Assembly (NCBI GenBank): GCA_949282265.1
Contig: CASDOZ010000007.1
Span: 62,001 to 126,000, forward strand
Reading direction: 5' to 3'
Length of the DNA: 64,000 bases
Source: an uncultured Bacteroidales bacterium
GTDB lineage: Bacteria > Bacteroidota > Bacteroidia > Bacteroidales > Paludibacteraceae
This document shows positions 10,427-20,059 of this stretch, piece after piece. The notes under the pieces are model-generated. The model was not told the origin of the DNA and did not search any database. It saw only the letters and a list, made by a program, of their open reading frames with translations. Position numbers and translations under genes: made by a program. Within the stretch, counting starts at the first letter, position 1. Each line of letters opens with the position of its first letter.

Positions 10427-11170
10427 TTAGAGAAATCCAATCCCTACACCTGCCACAAGATACACATGATCGTTGACCGGTGAGGCAATGATCTGCACGA
10501 ACAGCGGTATCGAGATTTTATCGGGAATGGTAGCGTTTTTAGTTGCTTTCAGCGATATATCAGTGAAAGCCGCCTTTTCGTGATAGTATCCCTTCCACGG
10601 TGTGAAGCCAATGGAAGGGCTTAACATGATATCATTGAGGCAGGTGATGTTATATGACGCGCTGATATAGGTTGAGTAACATCTCTTGTCTGTGGAAGTG
10701 TGTAGGTCTGCTCCAGCGAACCATGTGGACCAACTGAGGGAAAGGGGTACTTTCTCGCCGAAGTTGTAAGCAACTGTCGCCTCGAAGTGGTGGCCGCCAT
10801 CGACAGGGTTATCGGCTGGGCCATGCTTATAGTAACCGTACGGATTGTGCAATCCGCCCCACCAGTAATCGGTGATGGTGATGGAGATGCCATTGATGGA
10901 GTAACCGAGATTAATATCCAGTTCCTGCACATCTCGGTCAGCATTGTTGGTGAGGCTTTGGCTTCCCCATGCCGACAATGAGAAACCTTTGTAGGTGAAT
11001 CCCAACATCGGCTGCACGGAAAAACCGGAATTTTGATCCATACCGCGCCATACATAGTTGTTAACCAAGTCAATGTTACCGTTGACTGTAAATTTATCTT
11101 GTGCAGATATGCTTGCCGGGAGCGTCATAGCTCCCAATGCAAGTATAAGTATTAAATCGTTTTTTTTCAT
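10427..11170 (-). CDS. Outer-membrane beta-barrel protein of the kdp operon
   Basis: 247 residues. Signal peptide (about 1-23, ending ISAQ) and then alternating amphipathic strands with many aromatic residues (NNYVWRGMDQ, FSLSAWGSQSL, ISITITDYWWGG) and a C-terminal barrel-like strand (VYLVAGVGIGFL). It resembles putative porins of the TorF-like type. Start overlaps the kdpC stop by 4 bases, which ties it tightly to potassium uptake; I infer a potassium-permeable pore or barrel that feeds the inner-membrane pump. No characterised homologue is recognised. Confidence 0.7.
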   Translation of the reverse strand: MKKNDLILILALGAMTLPASISAQDKFTVNGNIDLVNNYVWRGMDQNSGFSVQPMLGFTYKGFSLSAWGSQSLTNNADRDVQELDINLGYSINGISITITDYWWGGLHNPYGYYKHGPADNPVDGGHHFEATVAYNFGEKVPLSLSWSTWFAGADLHTSTDKRCYSTYISASYNITCLNDIMLSPSIGFTPWKGYYHEKAAFTDISLKATKNATIPDKISIPLFVQIIASPVNDHVYLVAGVGIGFL

Positions 11171-11751
11171 TGCCTTTTTTTGTTGTCGAGCTCGTCAAGG
11201 GCAATGTTCAGTTTCAGCACGTTGATCTTTTCCGTACCGAACAGTCCGAGAAATGGGCGCTGTATTGAATTTTCCACAAGGCTTGCTATCTGCTGTTCAT
11301 TCATGCCTCGGGCCGCCGCCACGCGCTTCACCTGCACACGGGCGCATTGCGGAGTGATGTCCGGGTCGAGCCCCGAACCACTTGCCGTTACCATTTCTGC
11401 TGGTACATCTTTGCGTGTCAGGTATGGGTGATGCACGAGGAACGTGTCAATGCGTGCCTCTACTTCGGCAAGATATTCGGGATTTGTGGCTCCCTTGTTG
11501 CTGCCGCTGGAACTTGTGGCATCGTAGCCGTCACCGGCACATGAGGGACGCCCCCAGAAATAGATGTTTTGATTAAACTGTTGTCCAACATTAGCTGCTC
11601 CTACTACCTTTCCGTCCAGTGTCGCTACTTCGGCATTTCCACCGTTAGGCCCTGCTACCTTGGCGAACAGCCATAAAACCAATATATATGTAATAGACAG
11701 GAACACGCAGAATACGAGTGTCAGCCTGAGTGCTTTTACAAAATTTTTCAT
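11167..11751 (-). CDS. kdpC: Potassium-transporting ATPase subunit C
   Basis: 194 residues. One N-terminal membrane helix (about 10-32) and a periplasmic domain with family features: QNIYFWGRPSCAGDGYDATSSSGSN, the NPEYLAEVEARID region and ITPQCARVQVKRVAAARG. KdpC stabilises the KdpFABC complex and contacts KdpA/KdpB. It lies 14 bases after kdpB and overlaps the outer-membrane gene by 4 bases. Confidence 0.95.
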   Translation of the reverse strand: MKNFVKALRLTLVFCVFLSITYILVLWLFAKVAGPNGGNAEVATLDGKVVGAANVGQQFNQNIYFWGRPSCAGDGYDATSSSGSNKGATNPEYLAEVEARIDTFLVHHPYLTRKDVPAEMVTASGSGLDPDITPQCARVQVKRVAAARGMNEQQIASLVENSIQRPFLGLFGTEKINVLKLNIALDELDNKKRQ

Positions 11752-11765
11752 ATCTGTATTGTCTT

Positions 11766-13796
11766 TTAGAAGAATAATCCGATTAATAAATCAATGAGTT
11801 TGATGCCCACAAACGGGGCAATGATGCCGCCTACGCCATAGATGAGCAAGTTGCGGCGCAACAAGGCACTCGCACCTATTGGTTTGTACTGCACACCACG
11901 CAAAGCCAGCGGAATCAGCAACGGTATGATGATAGCGTTGAAGATGACTGCTGACAGTATCGCGCTCTCCGGTGAATGAAGTTTCATAATGTTCAGTGCT
12001 GCCAGTTCGGGAATGGAAACCATGAAGAGTGCGGGCACGATGGCAAAATACTTGGCCACATCGTTAGCGATGGAGAATGTGGTGAGTGTACCGCGTGTCA
12101 TTAGCAGCTGTTTGCCGATTTCCACGACCTCGATGAGCTTTGTCGGGTCGTTGTCGAGATCGACCATATTGCCGGCTTCTTTGGCTGCTTGTGTCCCACT
12201 GTTCATCGCCACGCCTACATCGGCTTGTGCCAGTGCAGGTGCATCGTTTGTTCCGTCGCCCATCATGGCGACGAGCTTGCCGTTCTGTTGTTCTGCCTTG
12301 ATATAGTTCATCTTATCTTCTGGCTTCGCTTCGGCGATGAAGTCATCCACACCGGCTTTTTCAGCGATATATTTTGCGGTGAGCGGATTGTCGCCAGTCA
12401 CCATCACGGTCTTCACTCCCATTTTGCGCAGGCGCTCGAAGCGTTCGCGGATGCCTGGTTTGATTATGTCCTGCAATTCTATAACACCTGTTACCTTTTT
12501 GTTCACGGACACGACGAGCGGCGTGCCTCCGTTGGAAGTAATTGTTTTGACTAGTTCCATTACACTGTCGGGGAAATCATTGCCTGCCGATTCAATGATG
12601 TGACGGATGGCCTCGTAAGCGCCTTTGCGGATTTCCGTGCCGTCCTTCAAATTAATGCCTGACGATTTGGTTTCGGCAGTGAACTTGATCATGCGTGTGC
12701 CGTTGATGTTGAGGTCTCTTATTCGCACCCCGTCTTTGTTGGCCAATTCGACGATTGATTTACCTTCGGGTGTATCATCGGATACTGATGACAGCAGACA
12801 GTACTTGATGAACTCCTGTTTGTCAACACCTTTCACAGGATGGAATTCTGTCGCCTTGCGGTTGCCGATAGTGATAGTACCTGTTTTGTCAAGTAGGAGG
12901 GTGTCAATGTCGCCTGCCGTCTCGACTGCCTTTCCGCTCTTGGTAATGACATTAGCCCGCAGGGCACGGTCCATGCCGGCGATGCCGATGGCCGAAAGCA
13001 AACCGCCGATGGTGGTTGGTATCAGACAGACGAATAGCGAGAGGAACGAGGCGATGGTGATGACCGTGCCTGTGTAGTCCGCGAACGGTTTCAACGTAAT
13101 GCAGACAATCAGGAACACTAAAGTGAACACTGCCAGCAGAATGGTCAGCGCGATTTCATTAGGCGTTTTTTGGCGCGATGCACCTTCCACGAGTGCAATC
13201 ATCTTGTCCAAAAAGCTCTCGCCCGGCTGTGTAGTAACAACTACACGGATGTGGTCGCTCAATACCTTTGTGCCGCCTGTCACACTGCTTTTGTCACCGC
13301 CTGCCTCACGTATTACGGGGGCGGATTCACCCGTTATGGCACTCTCGTCAATGGAGGCTAATCCTTCTACTATCTCGCCGTCGGCAGGAATCACGTCGCC
13401 AGCCTCGCAGACAAACTCGTCGCCTTTTTTTAATTGCGAACTGCTTACGGTTTTGATTTCTCCGTTTACATAAAGTTTTGCCGGTGTTTCTTCGCGTGTC
13501 TTGCGCAGGCTGTCGGCTTGTGCCTTGCCTCGTGCCTCGGCGATGGCTTCAGCGAAATTGGCGAAGAGCAGGGTGATGAAAAGGATGACAAAAACCAAGG
13601 TATTGTAGGCGAACGAACCTTGCGTGTTGTTGAATGCCGAATAGACGGTCACGGGCAGCATGATGGCTGTGCATACCTCCACCGTGAACATGATAGGGTT
13701 TTTAACCATTTGGCGTGGGTCAAGTTTTATAAATGACTGCCTGACGCTTTCTATAACTTGTTCCCTCTCGAAAAGGGATGAACTTTTATTACTCAT
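11766..13796 (-). CDS. kdpB: Potassium-transporting P-type ATPase, catalytic subunit B
   Basis: 676 residues, close to the 682 of E. coli. Shows the actuator motif ITGESAPV, the phosphorylation site [11 protein letters not shown] (about residue 305), the KGA motif (RKGAYEA) in the nucleotide domain, and the hinge [21 protein letters not shown] with [23 protein letters not shown] hydrolysis here drives high-affinity K+ uptake through KdpA. Nine bases separate it from kdpA. Confidence 0.98.
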
Positions 13797-13805
13797 AGTT
13801 TTTGT

Positions 13806-15512
13806 TTATAATGTTAAGTGTTCTGCAATTGTGCTCAATGCATGAACTGGGAAGAATGACAGGGCCGCTACGATGAAAATGACTGCAAACGTCATCACGC
13901 CGAATGTGGCTGTGTCGGTTCTAAGCGTACCTGCACTTTCGGGGATGTATTTCTTTTTGGCAAGAATACCGGCTATCGCCACCTGGCCCACAATAGGCAC
14001 GAAACGTCCGAGGATCAGCACGATGCCGCAGGAATAATTCCAGAACCATGTGTTGTCGCTTAGTCCTTCAAAGCCAGAACCGTTGTTGGCGGCGGAGGAT
14101 GTGAATTCGTAGAGCATTTCGCTCAGCCCGTGGTAACTGGGATTATTGAGCCAGCCGCCTTCCTGTGCCACAAAGCCGGGAGCATGGACGAAGAGGTAAG
14201 CAGCCAGTGCCGTGCCCACAAGAATTATGAACGGGTGGAGCAATGCTATGATGGACGCTATCTTCATTTCACGTGCCTCAACCTTATGTCCGAGGAACTC
14301 AGGCGTTCGTCCTACCATCAGTCCACTGATAAAGACGGCGATGATGATAAAAGTGAAATAGTTCATCCAGCCCACACCTACACCTCCGAACCATGTGTTT
14401 ATCTGCATATTGAGCATCTCAATCATTCCTGACAGAGGCATGGTGGAATCGTGCATTGAATTGACCGATCCGTTGGAGGTCACAGTGGTTGTCACGCTCC
14501 ACAACCCTCCGGCGGCCGAACCGATACGTACTTCCTTTCCTTCCATCGCTCCACCGTCCTGTGCTATGCCCATGGCATCAATACGTGGGTTGCCATTCAT
14601 TTCCTGATATACGTTGATGCCCACCCCCACAAGATAAGCAAAGAGCATTACGCCGAATATTGTGTAACCCAATTTACGGCGTTTCAGGTAGAAACCGAAA
14701 GCAAAGGCAAGTGACATCGGGATGATGAGAATGCTCCAGCACTCCACCATATTGGTCAGATAGGTAGGATTCTCCAACGGGTGGGAGGAATTTGCACCGA
14801 AATATCCTCCACCGTTTGTTCCAAGTTGCTTGATGGCCACGATAGCGGCGGCAGGACCTTGTGAAACCATCTGGGTCTGGCCTTCAAGAGTGCTCACTTC
14901 CATCTTTCCGTCGAAACCCATCGGGACACCTTCTGCAACCAGTATAAAACCGACTATGAGCGAAAGTGGCAACAGGATACGGGTGACGCTTAGGATAAGG
15001 AATTGCCAGAAGTTCCCGATTGTCTTGGTCGTTTTTGCTGCCAGTGCTTTCATGACACCGGCCATCGCAGCCATACCGGTTGCTGCGGTGATGAATTGGA
15101 ACAGCATGATGACGAACAGTTGTGTAAAATAGGTCAATCCGCTCTCGCCGCTATAATGTTGCAGATTGCAGTTCACCATAAACGAAATACAAGTGTTGAA
15201 CGCCTGATGGCATGTCTGCCCGATGTTGCCGTCGGGATTAAGAGGCAATATGCCTTGTATCACTAAAAGCACCATGCCCCACACGAACCAGAAGAGGTTC
15301 ACCACAAGTAGCGCACGTAGGAATTGTTTCCAGTCCATCTCTTCATCGGGATTCACACCACTCAATTTGTATATCCATCGCTCCACCGGTTTCACGAAGT
15401 CGAGGCACGTTTTCTCTCCCTTATACACCTTGGCGATGTATTTCCCGAGTGGCCAAGCGAGGACTATCATGAGGACTATTTGGAGTATCACTCCTAAAAT
15501 TTCTGTATTCAT
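13806..15512 (-). CDS. kdpA: Potassium-transporting ATPase subunit A (K+ channel-like)
   Basis: 568 residues, polytopic membrane protein of the superfamily of K+ transporters, with about ten helices. Selectivity-filter-type segments are visible: CISFMVNCNLQHYSGESGLTY cannot be quoted in full here, but the NCNLQHYSGE core, LGTNGGGYFGANSSHP and SAANNGSGFEG are the characteristic loops. It binds and conducts K+ in the KdpFABC complex. It lies 6 bases after kdpF. Confidence 0.97.
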   Translation of the reverse strand: MNTEILGVILQIVLMIVLAWPLGKYIAKVYKGEKTCLDFVKPVERWIYKLSGVNPDEEMDWKQFLRALLVVNLFWFVWGMVLLVIQGILPLNPDGNIGQTCHQAFNTCISFMVNCNLQHYSGESGLTYFTQLFVIMLFQFITAATGMAAMAGVMKALAAKTTKTIGNFWQFLILSVTRILLPLSLIVGFILVAEGVPMGFDGKMEVSTLEGQTQMVSQGPAAAIVAIKQLGTNGGGYFGANSSHPLENPTYLTNMVECWSILIIPMSLAFAFGFYLKRRKLGYTIFGVMLFAYLVGVGINVYQEMNGNPRIDAMGIAQDGGAMEGKEVRIGSAAGGLWSVTTTVTSNGSVNSMHDSTMPLSGMIEMLNMQINTWFGGVGVGWMNYFTFIIIAVFISGLMVGRTPEFLGHKVEAREMKIASIIALLHPFIILVGTALAAYLFVHAPGFVAQEGGWLNNPSYHGLSEMLYEFTSSAANNGSGFEGLSDNTWFWNYSCGIVLILGRFVPIVGQVAIAGILAKKKYIPESAGTLRTDTATFGVMTFAVIFIVAALSFFPVHALSTIAEHLTL

Positions 15513-15518
15513 ACTTCT

Positions 15519-15599
15519 TTAGAATTTTTCGGGCTTGACAAGCACGTACATTAGGTACGCGAAAATAATCAAGCTTACAATAAACAATGCTGTGTACAT
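15519..15599 (-). CDS. kdpF: KdpF, small potassium-ATPase subunit
   Basis: A 26-residue protein read directly from the minus strand. It begins MYTALFIVSLIIFAY and ends MYVLVKPEKF, a single hydrophobic helix with the family-typical basic C-terminus (KPEKF). Size, composition and position directly before kdpA match KdpF, a lipid-like stabilising subunit. The gap to kdpA is 6 bases, and 15 bases to the preceding 32-residue ORF. Confidence 0.88.
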   Translation of the reverse strand: MYTALFIVSLIIFAYLMYVLVKPEKF

Positions 15600-15614
15600 A
15601 ATCTCTGCCTCCGT

Positions 15615-15713
15615 TTAGATTTTCTCGAACCAGTCGATACATTTGAAGAATAGCCAAAAGCAGCCTATGCCGCTCAACAGGCAAATGACAAAACCGATTG
15701 TAAATAAATCCAT
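15615..15713 (-). CDS. 32-residue membrane protein at the head of the kdp operon
   Basis: Reads MDLFTIGFVICLLSGIGCFW then LFFKCIDWFEKI. One transmembrane helix with two in-membrane cysteines and an amphipathic acidic/aromatic tail. First ORF of the operon, about 46 bases after the predicted sigma54 start site. It is not KdpF, which follows. I recognise no characterised family; a second small accessory subunit of the Kdp pump is the natural inference. Confidence 0.65.
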   Translation of the reverse strand: MDLFTIGFVICLLSGIGCFWLFFKCIDWFEKI

Positions 15714-15769
15714 TTTCTAATCTTTTTTAGAATTAAACATTATTGTTATCTCATATCGCTTATTTATGT

Positions 15770-15785
15770 TGCAAAGCATTTGCCA
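15770..15785 (-). promoter_or_regulatory. Sigma54 promoter of the kdp structural operon
   Basis: Minus strand TGGCAAATGCTTTGCA matches the -24/-12 consensus TGGCAC-N5-TTGCW: GG and GC are separated by exactly 10 bases, with TTGCA at -12. It lies 57 bases before the first small ORF. The regulator encoded upstream is a sigma54 activator, which supports the call. Confidence 0.82.
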
Positions 15786-15857
15786 TAAGCGCAAGAATGT
15801 TTATAATATATTGGTTGTGAATGGATTATGACAATGGAATAGAATATAATGGAAACG

Positions 15858-15900
15858 AAAAACCCTTCCAAAATGAATGGAGATTTTCATTTTGGAAGGG
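15858..15900 (-). terminator. Rho-independent terminator of the regulator operon
   Basis: Perfect 15-bp inverted repeat (15863-15877 with 15886-15900), 8-base loop, followed on the minus strand by TTTTTCGTTT. It begins 31 bases after the stop of the response-regulator gene. The stem is made of the two enhancer-like half copies described separately. Confidence 0.85.
15863..15900 (-). promoter_or_regulatory. Enhancer-like paired palindromes upstream of kdp
   Basis: Two sites of the form TTTCA-N3-TGRAA: 15885-15897 (TTTCATTTTGGAA) and, reading the other strand, 15866-15878 (ATTCATTTTGGAA). Centres are 19 bp apart and lie about 101 and 120 bp from the -12 GC of the sigma54 promoter, the usual range for enhancer-binding proteins. 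The same motif pair precedes the regulator operon at 20026-20059. Confidence 0.72.
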
Positions 15901-15931
15901 TGAGATGTACAGTGATGTTATTCAGGAAGAG

Positions 15932-17287
15932 CTATATTGTAATGCCGTATTCTTCAATCTTGCGATAGAGGGTAGTCAAACCTATCTTGAGCAAACGGGC
16001 GGTTTCGGTTTTGTTGCCTTGTGTATAGATGAGCACCTTGATAATGTGGCTACGCTCCATGCTTTTTAAATCTAAGGACGTGTCAGCGGTCGTGTATGAA
16101 TTGTTATTGGTCAGGATGTCTATTGGCAAGTCGCTGGGGGTGATTTCCTTGTCGCAAACGATAAGCGCATGTTCAATTGCATTCATCAACTCGCGTACAT
16201 TGCCTGGCCACGAATAAGTCGAAATTATTTTTTCCGCATCAACCGTAAGGGGGACGGCTGTACGCCCGATACGTTTGCAGCACCTTTCAATCAAATGTTG
16301 TACAAGAAGAGGAATGTCGTCACGGCGTAAACGTAGAGGGGGAAGCTCGATGCGGAATACGGACAGACGGAAATAGAGATCCTCGCGGAAGTGGCCTTTA
16401 ACTATCTCTTCTTTCAGGTTACGGTTGGTGGCCGAGAGAATACGCACATCTACTTTGAACGTTTTTGTGTCACCGATTTTCATGAACTCGCCGGTTTCTA
16501 TCACTCGCAATAGTTTGGACTGCAATTCTATCGCCATTTCACCTATCTCGTCAAGGAACAATGTGCCGTGGTTGGCTTCCTCAAGCAGCCCTTTTTTGTC
16601 TTTGACTGCACCGGTAAAAGCACCAGCTTTGTAGCCGAATAGCTCACTCTCAAGTAATTCACGGCTAAATGCCGAACAGTTGAGGGCGACGAATGGTTGG
16701 TTGTTGCGTGTGCTGCCGTTGTGGATGGCATGAGCGAATACCTCTTTGCCAGTTCCGGTTTCGCCGTTGATGAGCACCGGTACATCAATGGGAGCTACTT
16801 TTTGTGCCTGACGTATCGCTTCGGTTATAAGCGGGGATTTGCCAACAATTTTTTCAAAACTATATGATGCTGTTTTATCGCCCGGAACAGTGGATTTCCC
16901 GCTGTTTTTCTTACGTTCGGCGGCAATGGCATCCATGGCGCGACTCACAATCGGTATGATTTTACGATTGTCATCACCTTTTACTATATAGTCAAAAGCC
17001 CCGTTCTTAATGGCTTGTACACCGTCAGGAATGTTTCCATGGGCCGTGAGGAGAATGATTTTTGCCGCAGGTGCCAGTCTTTGCAACTCTTGTACCATAT
17101 CAACACCGTTTCCGTCGGGAAGGAAAACATCACAGAGCACTATCTGCACATCGTTTTTTTTCAATGTGTCGAGTGCCGAGATCCTGTCTTTGGCTTTCAA
17201 GACTTCGTAGCCTTCCAATTCCAGTATGCGTCCGAGAAGCATCCGGATTGTTGATTCATCGTCTATAATCAATATATTATTCATCAT
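15932..17287 (-). CDS. NtrC-family sigma54-dependent response regulator of kdp
   Basis: 451 residues from the first ATG of MMNNILIIDDE. Receiver (about 1-120) with phospho-acceptor Asp at about 52-53 (VLCDVFLPDG), AAA+ domain with Walker A GETGTGKEVFA, the sigma54-contacting loop GAFTGA (YKAGAFTGAVKDK), Walker B TLFLDEIGEM and arginine-finger region, then a Fis-type HTH (ETARLLKIGLTTLYRKIEEY). A TTG at 17305 would extend it but overlaps the kinase stop and precedes the conserved start. It replaces the OmpR-type KdpE used in E. coli. Likely activates both sigma54 promoters here. Confidence 0.93.
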   Translation of the reverse strand: MMNNILIIDDESTIRMLLGRILELEGYEVLKAKDRISALDTLKKNDVQIVLCDVFLPDGNGVDMVQELQRLAPAAKIILLTAHGNIPDGVQAIKNGAFDYIVKGDDNRKIIPIVSRAMDAIAAERKKNSGKSTVPGDKTASYSFEKIVGKSPLITEAIRQAQKVAPIDVPVLINGETGTGKEVFAHAIHNGSTRNNQPFVALNCSAFSRELLESELFGYKAGAFTGAVKDKKGLLEEANHGTLFLDEIGEMAIELQSKLLRVIETGEFMKIGDTKTFKVDVRILSATNRNLKEEIVKGHFREDLYFRLSVFRIELPPLRLRRDDIPLLVQHLIERCCKRIGRTAVPLTVDAEKIISTYSWPGNVRELMNAIEHALIVCDKEITPSDLPIDILTNNNSYTTADTSLDLKSMERSHIIKVLIYTQGNKTETARLLKIGLTTLYRKIEEYGITI

Positions 17288-17301
17288 CTTTTTATATTTT
17301 A

Positions 17302-18774
17302 TCAAGCAGGCAATGCCACTATAAATTTGCTGCCCTTGCCCAATTCACTTTCCACTGTCAGCGTCCCGTTGTGTGCTTCTACAAAATCGCGGGAAATTGA
17401 CAAACCAAGCCCGCTGCCTTGCACCTTTATACCAGGTACACGGAAATAGCGCTCGAAGATACTTTCATGATATCGGGGGTCGATACCGCGTCCGAAATCT
17501 TGTACATAAAGTATTACCTGATGTTTGTCATTCTGTTGTGCGCCTATAATAACACGCCCGTTTTCTGACGAGTACCGGATAGCGTTGTTGAGCAGATTGG
17601 TCAATACCCATGCTATCTTTTCGCTGTCTATATAAAGTTTTGAAATCTTTTCTTTCGGATAATCCACTTCTATGTTGATATTGAACTTGTCTGCCTGTAC
17701 CTGATTGGCTTTGATGGCATATTCGATAAGTTTGATGGGTTTAGTTATATGTGGTTTCAATTGAAGCGCACCGCTTTCCACTTGTGTCATGTTAAGCAAT
17801 TCACTGGTAATGCTGAGCAAGCGCTCCCCGTTCTTTTTGATGCTGTCGGAGAGTTCTTTCTGTTCCGCGTTCAATACACCCACGCGATTGTCGGTAAGCA
17901 ATTGCTGGCTCATGAGAATGGCAGAGATAGGGGTCTTCAATTCATGGGATATTGTCGAGATTAAAGTTGTCTTTGCCACATCAAGTTTATGGAATTCAGT
18001 AATGTTTTTCAGCATCACAACTGTGCCGCGTTCCGTAATATTCCCATCTGCGTCTGCCATTTTTACCGGAAGATACTTCACTTGGAAATAGCTTTCCTTA
18101 TTGTCTGCATAAATTTTCAGCGATTCGGTTTTCTTCTCGGCGGCATCTCCGTATTCCTTTTGCTCGTTATTTCCATTCAACAATCGACGCAACAAGTCGT
18201 TGTGCATGGCAATCTCTTGTGCTGATTTGCCCAAGACCTCATCCCGTTTCAGGTTGAGTATGTCAAGCGCTTCGTTATTGATGAAATAGAACGTCAGCTC
18301 TTGGTCAATACAAATCATTGGCTCGTCGATAGAGTCAATGATAGTCTCTATGTACTGCTTCGACACCCTAAGTTTTGAAAGCGAGGAGTTGTAGTAATCA
18401 CGAAGGCAATGGGACATACGGTTGAAGTTTAAAGATAGTTGCTCCATTGCCACACTGCCCTGGAGATGCAGTTCTGTATCGTAATTGTGGTTGGCAATCT
18501 CATTGATACCTTCCGACAGTTCCTTAAACGGACGATTTATGGAATCAGGCAACCATATCAATATCCATATCCCGACAATGACACTAAGTGTGCCAAATGT
18601 CAGCAAAAGTGCCAAAGCTCTTGACAGTCCATAATCCGCCACGGGCGAAGTCGGTTCTGTAGCAGTAAGAATTTGTAAACTTATGACGGATAGGGCTACC
18701 AGTCCGACAATTAGGGCTACCAGCACTCCCACATAGAGTGTTAGTTTCTCTTTTATGCTCATGTTATATTTCAT
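17302..18774 (-). CDS. Histidine kinase with HAMP and PAS domains (kdp partner)
   Basis: 490 residues. Two membrane helices (about 10-33 and 50-75) enclose a very short extracytoplasmic loop, so sensing is probably intracellular or intramembrane. HAMP (about 76-128), PAS (about 140-260; ETIIDSIDEPMICIDQELTF), HisKA with ISHELKTPISAIL (about residue 280), HATPase_c with NLLNNAIRYS, DFGRGIDPRYHESIF and GSGLGLSIS. It lies between the KdpD-like sensor and the response regulator. I infer that it supplies the kinase half missing from that KdpD protein. Confidence 0.92.
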   Translation of the reverse strand: MKYNMSIKEKLTLYVGVLVALIVGLVALSVISLQILTATEPTSPVADYGLSRALALLLTFGTLSVIVGIWILIWLPDSINRPFKELSEGINEIANHNYDTELHLQGSVAMEQLSLNFNRMSHCLRDYYNSSLSKLRVSKQYIETIIDSIDEPMICIDQELTFYFINNEALDILNLKRDEVLGKSAQEIAMHNDLLRRLLNGNNEQKEYGDAAEKKTESLKIYADNKESYFQVKYLPVKMADADGNITERGTVVMLKNITEFHKLDVAKTTLISTISHELKTPISAILMSQQLLTDNRVGVLNAEQKELSDSIKKNGERLLSITSELLNMTQVESGALQLKPHITKPIKLIEYAIKANQVQADKFNINIEVDYPKEKISKLYIDSEKIAWVLTNLLNNAIRYSSENGRVIIGAQQNDKHQVILYVQDFGRGIDPRYHESIFERYFRVPGIKVQGSGLGLSISRDFVEAHNGTLTVESELGKGSKFIVALPA

Positions 18775-18785
18775 GTTTATAAATT

Positions 18786-19907
18786 TTATGCGAAGATAAC
18801 CAAATCTATGCTCATTGCTTTCAGTTCGAGCAATAAATTTCTATAATCCTTGGCTCGTGTGAGCAGACGCGGCAGCGTGAGCGAGGGTTGTCCCATGCAG
18901 AGCGTGGTGATATATTCCTCCCGGCAGATGATGGCGATGGTCTGTGCGATATTGTCCGACACGACTTTTCTGATGCGCCCTCCGAGTTGCACCACCAGTT
19001 CCAGATGGCTCATTAGATGCCGCTGCGTGTTCAGTTGGATGCGATCGTTGTTTTCTTTCGGGGTCTGCACATACAGGGCGACAAACTCGGCATTGTGGAA
19101 GTCCGCAAGACGCGCTGCCTTGCGGATAATGCGCTGCTGGGTTTCGCTGTTGCTGCTTACGCATACAAGCAGCCTTGACTGTCCCTTGCCATTCTTTACG
19201 ATAGGATTTACCTCGCTTGCTACTTTTTTGCTTACACGGAAGGCAACCTCTTTCAGTGCTAACTCACGCAGCTGAAGTATATTGTCTGTCTTGAAGAAAT
19301 TGTCAAGTGCCGTCTGTATCTTTTCTTTGGCATATATTTTTCCTGCTTTCAGACGGTCAACGAGCTCCTCCGCTGTGAGGTCGATATTGACCACCTCGTC
19401 AGCTTCCTGGAGCACAAGGTCGGGGATGCGCTCCTTCACGTTTATGCCCACTATATTCCGCACTTCGTCATTGAGGCTCTCAATATGCTGGATATTGACA
19501 GCTGAAAGAACATTGATGCCCGCATCGAGCAGTTCCATTACATCCTGCCACCGTTTGGCGTTACGGCATCCCTCCACGTTGGAGTGTGCCAGTTCATCGA
19601 CTATCACTATCTCAGGATGGATTTGCAGGATGGCATCCAAGTCCATCTCTTCAACCTCCTTCCCCTTATAAAATATTTTTTTGCGAGGTATGACGGGCAA
19701 ACCTTTCAGAACTTTTATCGTATCGGGACGACCGTGTGTTTCCACATAGCCAATCTGCACATCTGTACCGCCTTGCAGCATTGTTCTCGCATCCTGCAAC
19801 ATGCGGTAGGTCTTGCCCACACCGGCTATCATTCCGATATATACCTTGAAGCGTCCCCTGCGTGAACGCTTTATGAGGTCGAGGAAATATTGTGAATTAT
19901 CTTCCAT
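18786..19907 (-). CDS. kdpD: KdpD N-terminal sensor protein without kinase
   Basis: 373 residues, matching only the cytoplasmic N-terminal part of KdpD. KdpD domain (about 18-225) with Walker A GMIAGVGKTYRML, the ETHGRPDT segment and Walker B-like IVIVDELAHSNVEG; universal-stress-protein-like domain (about 248-373; RLLVCVSSNSETQQRII). The four membrane helices, GAF and histidine-kinase domains of E. coli KdpD are absent. The reading frame is intact with its own promoter, so this is a split architecture, not a pseudogene. Eleven bases separate it from the kinase gene. Confidence 0.9.
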   Translation of the reverse strand: MEDNSQYFLDLIKRSRRGRFKVYIGMIAGVGKTYRMLQDARTMLQGGTDVQIGYVETHGRPDTIKVLKGLPVIPRKKIFYKGKEVEEMDLDAILQIHPEIVIVDELAHSNVEGCRNAKRWQDVMELLDAGINVLSAVNIQHIESLNDEVRNIVGINVKERIPDLVLQEADEVVNIDLTAEELVDRLKAGKIYAKEKIQTALDNFFKTDNILQLRELALKEVAFRVSKKVASEVNPIVKNGKGQSRLLVCVSSNSETQQRIIRKAARLADFHNAEFVALYVQTPKENNDRIQLNTQRHLMSHLELVVQLGGRIRKVVSDNIAQTIAIICREEYITTLCMGQPSLTLPRLLTRAKDYRNLLLELKAMSIDLVIFA

Positions 19908-19934
19908 ATATTCTAAATTGGGGTATATGAAACA

Positions 19935-19950
19935 TGCAATTAATAGGCCA
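19935..19950 (-). promoter_or_regulatory. Sigma54 promoter of the kdp regulator operon
   Basis: Minus strand TGGCCTATTAATTGCA: GG and GC separated by 10 bases, TTGCA at -12. Predicted start about 17 bases before the KdpD-like ORF. Confidence 0.78.
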
Positions 19951-20025
19951 GAAGCAGATTTTTTATAAATAGTTGTAAATATGTAATTTGCAACAAACGG
20001 TAGGTCAAAGATCTATATCTGACCA

Positions 20026-20059
20026 TTTCATTTTGAAACGGTGTATTTTCATTATGGAA
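20026..20059 (-). promoter_or_regulatory. Enhancer-like paired palindromes upstream of the regulator operon
   Basis: TTTCATTTTGAAA (20026-20038, a perfect TTTCA-N3-TGAAA palindrome) and TTTCATTATGGAA (20047-20059, one mismatch). Centres 21 bp apart, at about 96 and 117 bp from the -12 GC. Motif and distances nearly duplicate those upstream of kdp at 15866-15897, implying autoregulation by the NtrC-type protein. Confidence 0.72.

Follow-up and report, generated by a model that had tools for sequence, protein, structure and literature searches.

The potassium pump KdpFABC is controlled in Escherichia coli by a fused KdpD kinase and the OmpR-type regulator KdpE, with transcription by sigma70 polymerase. 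Here we describe a kdp cluster of a different build in an uncultured Bacteroidales bacterium of the family Paludibacteraceae (assembly GCA_949282265.1, contig CASDOZ010000007.1, positions 62,001 to 126,000; this whole stretch of 64,000 nucleotides is called the window). In this cluster the kdp operon and a second operon, which encodes a KdpD-like sensor, a histidine kinase and an NtrC-type response regulator, are each preceded by a sigma54-type -24/-12 promoter and a pair of palindromes. Judging from the sequence and its conservation, both operons are very likely driven by an NtrC-type, sigma54-dependent potassium-starvation switch, and the switch, which recurs across related bacteria, probably answers to a single activator protein.

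Like KdpD/KdpE of E. coli, the predicted system controls kdpFABC and uses a homologous KdpD sensor domain. Its regulator, however, is not of the OmpR/PhoB type but combines Response_reg, Sigma54_activat and HTH_8 domains and is accompanied by -24/-12 promoters, and the KdpD sensor and the kinase are two open reading frames (ORFs) in the window instead of one fused chain. Systems of the NtrC family have paired enhancer sites upstream. The receiver-AAA+-Fis helix-turn-helix (HTH) layout of NtrC, ZraR and AtoC is found in the window regulator as well, whereas operator and target differ.

Control of kdp of the sigma54 type is already known from Desulfovibrio vulgaris. DVU3334, which is listed as a GAFTGA regulator of potassium uptake (PMC4641369), is described as regulating its own operon, which includes kdpFABC; two separate ORFs encode its kinase (PMC3333781). 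The likeness to the window, as far as this published description shows it, extends to the GAFTGA response regulator, the kdp target, the control of its own operon, and a KdpD/Usp ORF paired with a kinase ORF. As described, one operon of D. vulgaris holds both kdp and the regulators, whereas the window has two, each with a promoter-operator module; on the Bacteroidales side only, trkH joins in relatives and an operator pair doubles as a hairpin. The form in the window appears to be a variant with two separate module-bearing operons. A first-pass annotation of this DNA had contrasted it with E. coli Kdp. The contrast holds in that the regulator is not OmpR-type, but taken alone it overstates the novelty because of the Desulfovibrio precedent.

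Within the Bacteroidota, -24/-12 promoters are described in Flavobacterium psychrophilum, one of them confirmed with a reporter; the main text of that article gives protein quality control, envelope stress and gliding as sigma54 targets and does not include kdp (PMC9723704). The available text of PMC3162934 mentions kdp for E. coli only, and the main text of PMC12316311 contains neither kdp nor potassium. No title or abstract among the matches listed describes sigma54 control of kdp in Bacteroidota, which is no proof of absence because several of the listings are partial.

Results

The first-pass annotation had reported two -24/-12 sites with GG-N10-GC spacing, and both are present: read as reverse complement, 15770-15785 is TGGCAAATGCTTTGCA and 19935-19950 is TGGCCTATTAATTGCA (Table 1). 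The pattern TGGC-N7-TTGCW occurs at four sites on the two strands of the 64 kb, and two of the four are these promoters. Four palindromes upstream had been read as TTTCA-N3-TGRAA. Three fit exactly on the + strand, namely TTTCATTTTGGAA (15885-15897), TTTCATTTTGAAA (20026-20038) and TTTCATTATGGAA (20047-20059), but the kdp proximal site at 15866-15878 (ATTCATTTTGGAA on the - strand) has one mismatch, or two if scored against TTTCA-N3-TGAAA. The distances from the palindrome centres to the -12 GC, previously put at about 101/120 and 96/117 bp, are about 100/120 bp at the kdp promoter and 96/117 bp at that of the regulator operon by our calculation. TTTCANNNTGRAA matches 51 distinct places in this organism's draft genome of 2.47 Mb, and TGGC-N7-TTGCW matches 88; only three pairs of an operator and a promoter match lie at most 300 bp apart, and all three are at the kdp and regulator-operon promoters. 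Two exact matches with an A/T-only centre (C7:54375 and C14:45494) were considered as further regulon members and dropped; they lie inside coding frames.

We compared this arrangement with related loci. A KdpA pattern scan supplied the best 80 of 123 relatives, all Bacteroidales, which together with the window make 81 loci, and 78 of these have at least 560 bp ahead of kdpA. Scoring by consensus identified a promoter in 53 of the 78; the remaining 25, many with GT at -12 or with Rikenellaceae-type promoters, were dropped. The scored promoter lies at -300 to -261 before kdpA in 43 of the 53 loci (10-bp bins). A palindrome with at most two mismatches starts 90-95 bp before the -24 element in 46 of the 53, whereas in 20 shuffles on average 0.7 and never more than 2 loci had one at this position, and other 6-bp windows, the second-site region excepted, had a palindrome in at most 6 loci. 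The second site (at most two mismatches, -117 to -110) was found in 19 of 53. After clustering at 70% identity the first site was present in 30 of 37 loci and the second in 13 of 37. From these counts, a single site at about -92 is the rule, and the pair is frequent but not universal. The first-pass annotation had made its reading depend on motif pairs at related kdp loci; the module is indeed conserved there at a fixed distance, but the second palindrome often is not.

Most of the 25 dropped loci were recovered by a looser promoter rule (TGG[CT]) combined with a strict operator rule: the palindrome core is followed 90-95 bp downstream by TGG[CT] before kdpA in 68 of 78 loci, against 1 of 78 in the backward control. 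The ten failures are the window, L006, L044, L053, L054, L058, L060, L062, L072 and L078; L053, L054 and L058 have no regulator match in the locus, and L058 has no palindrome either. In Phocaeicola vulgatus ATCC 8482 (L009), TTTCATTTTGAAA stands at -92 before TGGCACACTATTGGCA. The -12 element reads GT instead of GC (for example TTCGTA or TTGGTA) in L033, L056, L066, L068, L070 and L076, with the operator at the right distance, and GT may represent a variant form of the sigma54 -12 element in Bacteroidales.

Besides kdp, the module occurs at a second kind of gene. Both strands of the 81 loci (2,861,196 bases) were searched for scored promoters that have a core operator 88-97 bp upstream of them. 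The scan gave 53 modules, and none in the backward control; 47 are ahead of kdpA and six ahead of the sensor gene or of trkH(-like)-sensor genes. In three of these six cases (the window, Prevotella bivia L013 and Odoribacter laneus L053) the module is 43-117 bp ahead of the sensor gene; in the other three (L019, L022 and L069) the distance is 1.6 kb, and the gene in between is TrkH by Pfam in L019 and L069 and a similar-looking ORF in L022. By eye, a weaker module was seen before the sensor gene in L006, and in Hallella (L003) palindromes lie 92 and 113 bp before TGGTACTCCATTTGTA, a weaker, GT-type promoter ahead of a trkH-like ORF that precedes the sensor. The trkH(-like) modules are at L019:11502, L022:14303, L069:13667 and L003:2968. 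The presence of the same module at trkH(-like) genes suggests a wider potassium regulon. In most of the 81 loci (62) the sensor gene itself is 3' of kdpC, sharing its strand and no more than 4 kb away; it is elsewhere in 9, the window included, and the stretch examined contained no sensor gene in 10.

One alternative is that the regulator controls kdp while the promoter of its own operon is independent of it, so that there is no feedback loop. Most relatives indeed lack a separate regulator-operon module, with only the six of the scan and the two weaker ones found by eye. However, the two operators of the window's second module, at -88 and -109, are roughly where they would be expected, and the remaining five modules come from other lineages, where they too precede the sensor gene or trkH(-like)-sensor genes. 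We consider the absence of feedback unlikely.

We then asked whether the operator follows the regulator. The recognition helix reads GLTT (once GHTT; T helix) or G[LIV]AT (A helix), and one regulator (L070) has no readable helix. For typing at the placed site, only palindromes 88-97 bp before TG[GA][CT] were used; an earlier typing and the tree used every core palindrome from 560 to 240 bp before kdpA. At the placed site, all 19 A-helix loci have an operator of the TATCA/TCTCA type, and the 39 T-helix loci have the TTTCA/TTCCA type in 27 cases, mixed half-sites in 11 and the opposite type in one (L078). Another 18 regions were added, of which four duplicate earlier loci (L206, L209, L211 and L212), L215-L217 have no core operator in the scanned stretch, L218 has no regulator match and L219-L221 have no NtrC-type regulator match. 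The seven kept gave the A type in 2/2 A-helix loci, and the TTTCA type in 3/5 and mixed sites in 2/5 T-helix loci. Pooled, 21/21 A-helix loci are of the TATCA/TCTCA type, and the T-helix loci divide into 30/44 TTTCA-type, 13/44 mixed and 1/44 opposite. L019, L022 and L069 have the A helix, and their trkH(-like) modules are also of the TATCA/TCTCA type. A tree was built from 69 regulators with the HTH left out. The helix switches twice on it, and so does the operator, in the same places; 66 of 66 rows are concordant when all core palindromes are used and mixed sites are counted as T-type. The proposal of the first-pass annotation that the NtrC-type regulator drives both operons through the palindromes is thus supported by the conservation of the module together with the covariation of helix and operator.

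A protein other than the encoded regulator might also bind the palindromes. The genome has four strong sigma54-activator domains, so that three candidates exist besides the kdp-linked regulator, but it is the recognition helix of the kdp-linked regulator that operator position 2 tracks in two separate switches, and the palindromes lie within the regulator's own gene neighbourhood. Binding by another protein is therefore very unlikely.

The kdp palindromes have a further property, which had been overlooked. Directly 3' of the regulator gene the pair forms a GC-containing hairpin with a perfect 16-bp stem followed by TTTTCG, which is probably the terminator of the regulator operon. The palindrome pair of the regulator operon folds more weakly (z -2.8) and has no T run after it. 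A stem of at least 10 bp with a tail of at least 4 T occurs in 15 of 19 loci that have a regulator gene ending close upstream in the same orientation, vs 8 of 34 others (Fisher p 1.4e-4; cluster representatives 9/13 vs 5/24, p 0.006), p values that are optimistic because the loci are related. In this comparison L064 and L075 were entered with the scored promoter; the looser rule puts their promoter elsewhere.

Because they form hairpin arms, the kdp palindromes could be merely the terminator of the regulator gene, with no protein bound, and both the perfect hairpin with its T run and the greater frequency of long T-tailed hairpins next to a regulator gene end would agree with this. We rejected this explanation as highly improbable, since the palindrome holds its position at -90 to -95 in most loci without an adjacent regulator gene, modules stand at other promoters, including that of the sensor operon, whose palindromes have no T run after them, and the palindrome covaries with the regulator helix. 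Our reading of the palindromes as regulator binding sites is that the operator came first and the terminator was later built on it. A functional coupling of operator and terminator is speculation. It is a doubtful, though conceivable, extension that selection made enhancer and terminator one element, in which the activator binds the terminator DNA of its own operon and occupancy and read-through affect each other, that the module moves between families as a unit, and that its specificity was twice re-set by a Thr/Ala change at one helix position.

The primary sigma factor of Bacteroidota has the promoter consensus TAnnTTTG, which we took over from the first-pass annotation. That this factor reads the promoters and the -24/-12 matches are decoration is most improbable: sigma70-like matches near both sites (27 in the 11-kb region vs 19.6 in shuffles, standard deviation 4.9, not striking) and two matches to TAnnTTTG that precede the sensor gene by 450 and 625 bp would favour it, but the interval from kdpA to the regulator gene contains no TAnnTTTG, the -24/-12 element keeps its position with respect to kdpA and the operator across Bacteroidales, and the activator is a GAFTGA protein.

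Table 1. Features of the kdp and regulator cluster (positions in the window)
Feature	Position	Strand	Remarks
Sigma54-type -24/-12 promoter, kdp operon, TGGCAAATGCTTTGCA	15770..15785	-	motif match; 273 bp ahead of kdpA
Sigma54-type promoter, regulator operon, TGGCCTATTAATTGCA	19935..19950	-	motif match; 43 bp ahead of sensor ORF
kdp proximal candidate operator, ATTCATTTTGGAA	15866..15878	-	starts 93 bp upstream of -24; position kept in relatives
kdp distal candidate operator, TTCCAAAATGAAA	15885..15897	-	starts 112 bp upstream of -24
Regulator-operon proximal candidate operator, TTTCAAAATGAAA	20026..20038	-	starts 88 bp upstream of -24
Regulator-operon distal candidate operator, TTCCATAATGAAA	20047..20059	-	starts 109 bp upstream of -24
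16-bp hairpin and T run from both kdp operators	15862..15901	-	probable regulator-operon terminator; -23.7 kcal/mol, z -7.6
KdpD-like sensor lacking a kinase domain (KdpD domain, weak Usp)	18786..19907	-	PF02702 E 4e-92; Usp just below cut-off
Separate histidine kinase	17302..18774	-	weak HAMP, PAS, HisKA, HATPase_c
NtrC-type response regulator, GAFTGA and Fis HTH	15932..17305	-	recognition helix GLTTLYRK
First ORF of kdp operon, 32-aa predicted membrane peptide (X)	15615..15713	-	C-terminal motif in 78/81 loci
kdpF, 26 aa	15519..15599	-	PF09604 above cut-off; TIGR02115 just below cut-off
kdpA	13806..15512	-	TIGR00680 above cut-off
kdpB	11766..13796	-	TIGR01497 above cut-off
kdpC	11167..11751	-	PF02669; TIGR00681 above cut-off
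Gcw_chp/TorF-like putative porin gene after kdpC	10427..11170	-	PF09694 above cut-off; TIGR02001 below

On the - strand the genes follow each other as sensor, histidine kinase and response regulator (19907-15932), then the 32-aa ORF, kdpF, kdpA, kdpB, kdpC and the Gcw_chp-type gene, and all four pump subunits (F, A, B and C) are present. The top NCBIfam match of the sensor ORF, NF038185, scored 349.5 bits, below its 550-bit cut-off. The GAFTGA motif and Fis HTH that had been noticed in the regulator were both found, along with PF00158 (Sigma54_activat), a Response_reg domain and HTH_8; the motifs are GETGTGKE (Walker A), GAFTGA and GLTTLYRK. Among the best 25 of its 121 NCBIfam matches AtoC and NtrC rank first, all below cut-off. 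The 32-aa ORF (..CFWLFFKCIDWFEKI), which stands between the kdp promoter and kdpF, differs from those of four relatives mostly at third codon positions. Three versions of the peptide gave no Pfam match at E <0.05 and no NCBIfam match, and it is possibly an unrecognised Kdp-associated small protein. Gcw_chp/TorF-like genes are similarly placed 3' of kdpC in many relatives.

The cluster (10427-20059) was probably acquired horizontally, as a comparison of KdpA with SecA, which is encoded beside it, indicates. KdpA is 91% identical to that of Hallella/Hoylesella and of L006; in two matched stretches, SecA shares 65-70% identity with Hallella/Hoylesella and 58-63% with L006. The best SecA match of 15 genomes is L021 (78-82%), and the KdpA of L021 is 82% identical. 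One other genome of the same genus gave no sensor match at E 1e-40, and in the window's family 27 of 358 genomes gave one. In 23 of the 27 (L146-L168) the match is a longer frame of 661-911 aa with 39-43% identity and not the short sensor. There may be two kinds of Kdp regulation inside one family.

Discussion

Several observations weigh against a sigma54 switch worked by the encoded regulator or limit the first-pass reading of it. The kdp proximal site of the window carries a mismatch (A at position 1), the window itself is among the ten loci that fail the strict operator rule, and the second site is present in only 19 of 53 loci. The kdp-side operator pair also forms a terminator-like hairpin, and E. 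coli-type sigma70-like consensus matches occur near both promoters. On the side of the regulator, 13 of the 44 T-helix loci have mixed half-sites, L078 has a site of the opposite type at the expected distance and its TTTCA-type site at -69 instead, and no operator could be placed in L044, L060, L062 and L072 despite their regulator. There were only two independent switches, which are too few for the sign test to be significant (p 0.5). The circuit had been called self-contained, which it is not, because RpoN (PF04552, E 2.2e-53) is encoded in the genome on a different contig from the cluster. Finally, a precedent for GAFTGA control of kdp exists in the published description of Desulfovibrio.

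We propose the following mechanism for the switch. As potassium becomes scarce, the NtrC-type regulator would be phosphorylated by the split KdpD sensor together with the partner kinase. The regulator would then bind the palindrome of 13 bp (TTTCA-N3-TGRAA in this lineage) that lies about 90 bp before the -24/-12 promoter; in many cases a second site stands some 20 bp further upstream. As expected from its family, the regulator would oligomerise, and its GAFTGA ATPase would open sigma54 RNA polymerase. The two copies of the module would drive the kdp operon and the sensor-kinase-regulator operon, which would result in positive autoregulation, and in several relatives a second copy would drive the sensor genes and, along with them, a trkH(-like) gene. 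The kdp operators would double as the hairpin that probably terminates the regulator operon.

For NtrC-type regulators, the covariation provides a natural pair of helix and operator specificities, and the window adds an enhancer pair that doubles as a hairpin. For Bacteroidales, which are major gut bacteria, these data predict a mechanism of potassium homeostasis unlike the textbook case of E. coli and identify its candidate operator, promoter and regulator; in this mechanism Kdp, and in some lineages also TrkH, would be under one sigma54 switch.

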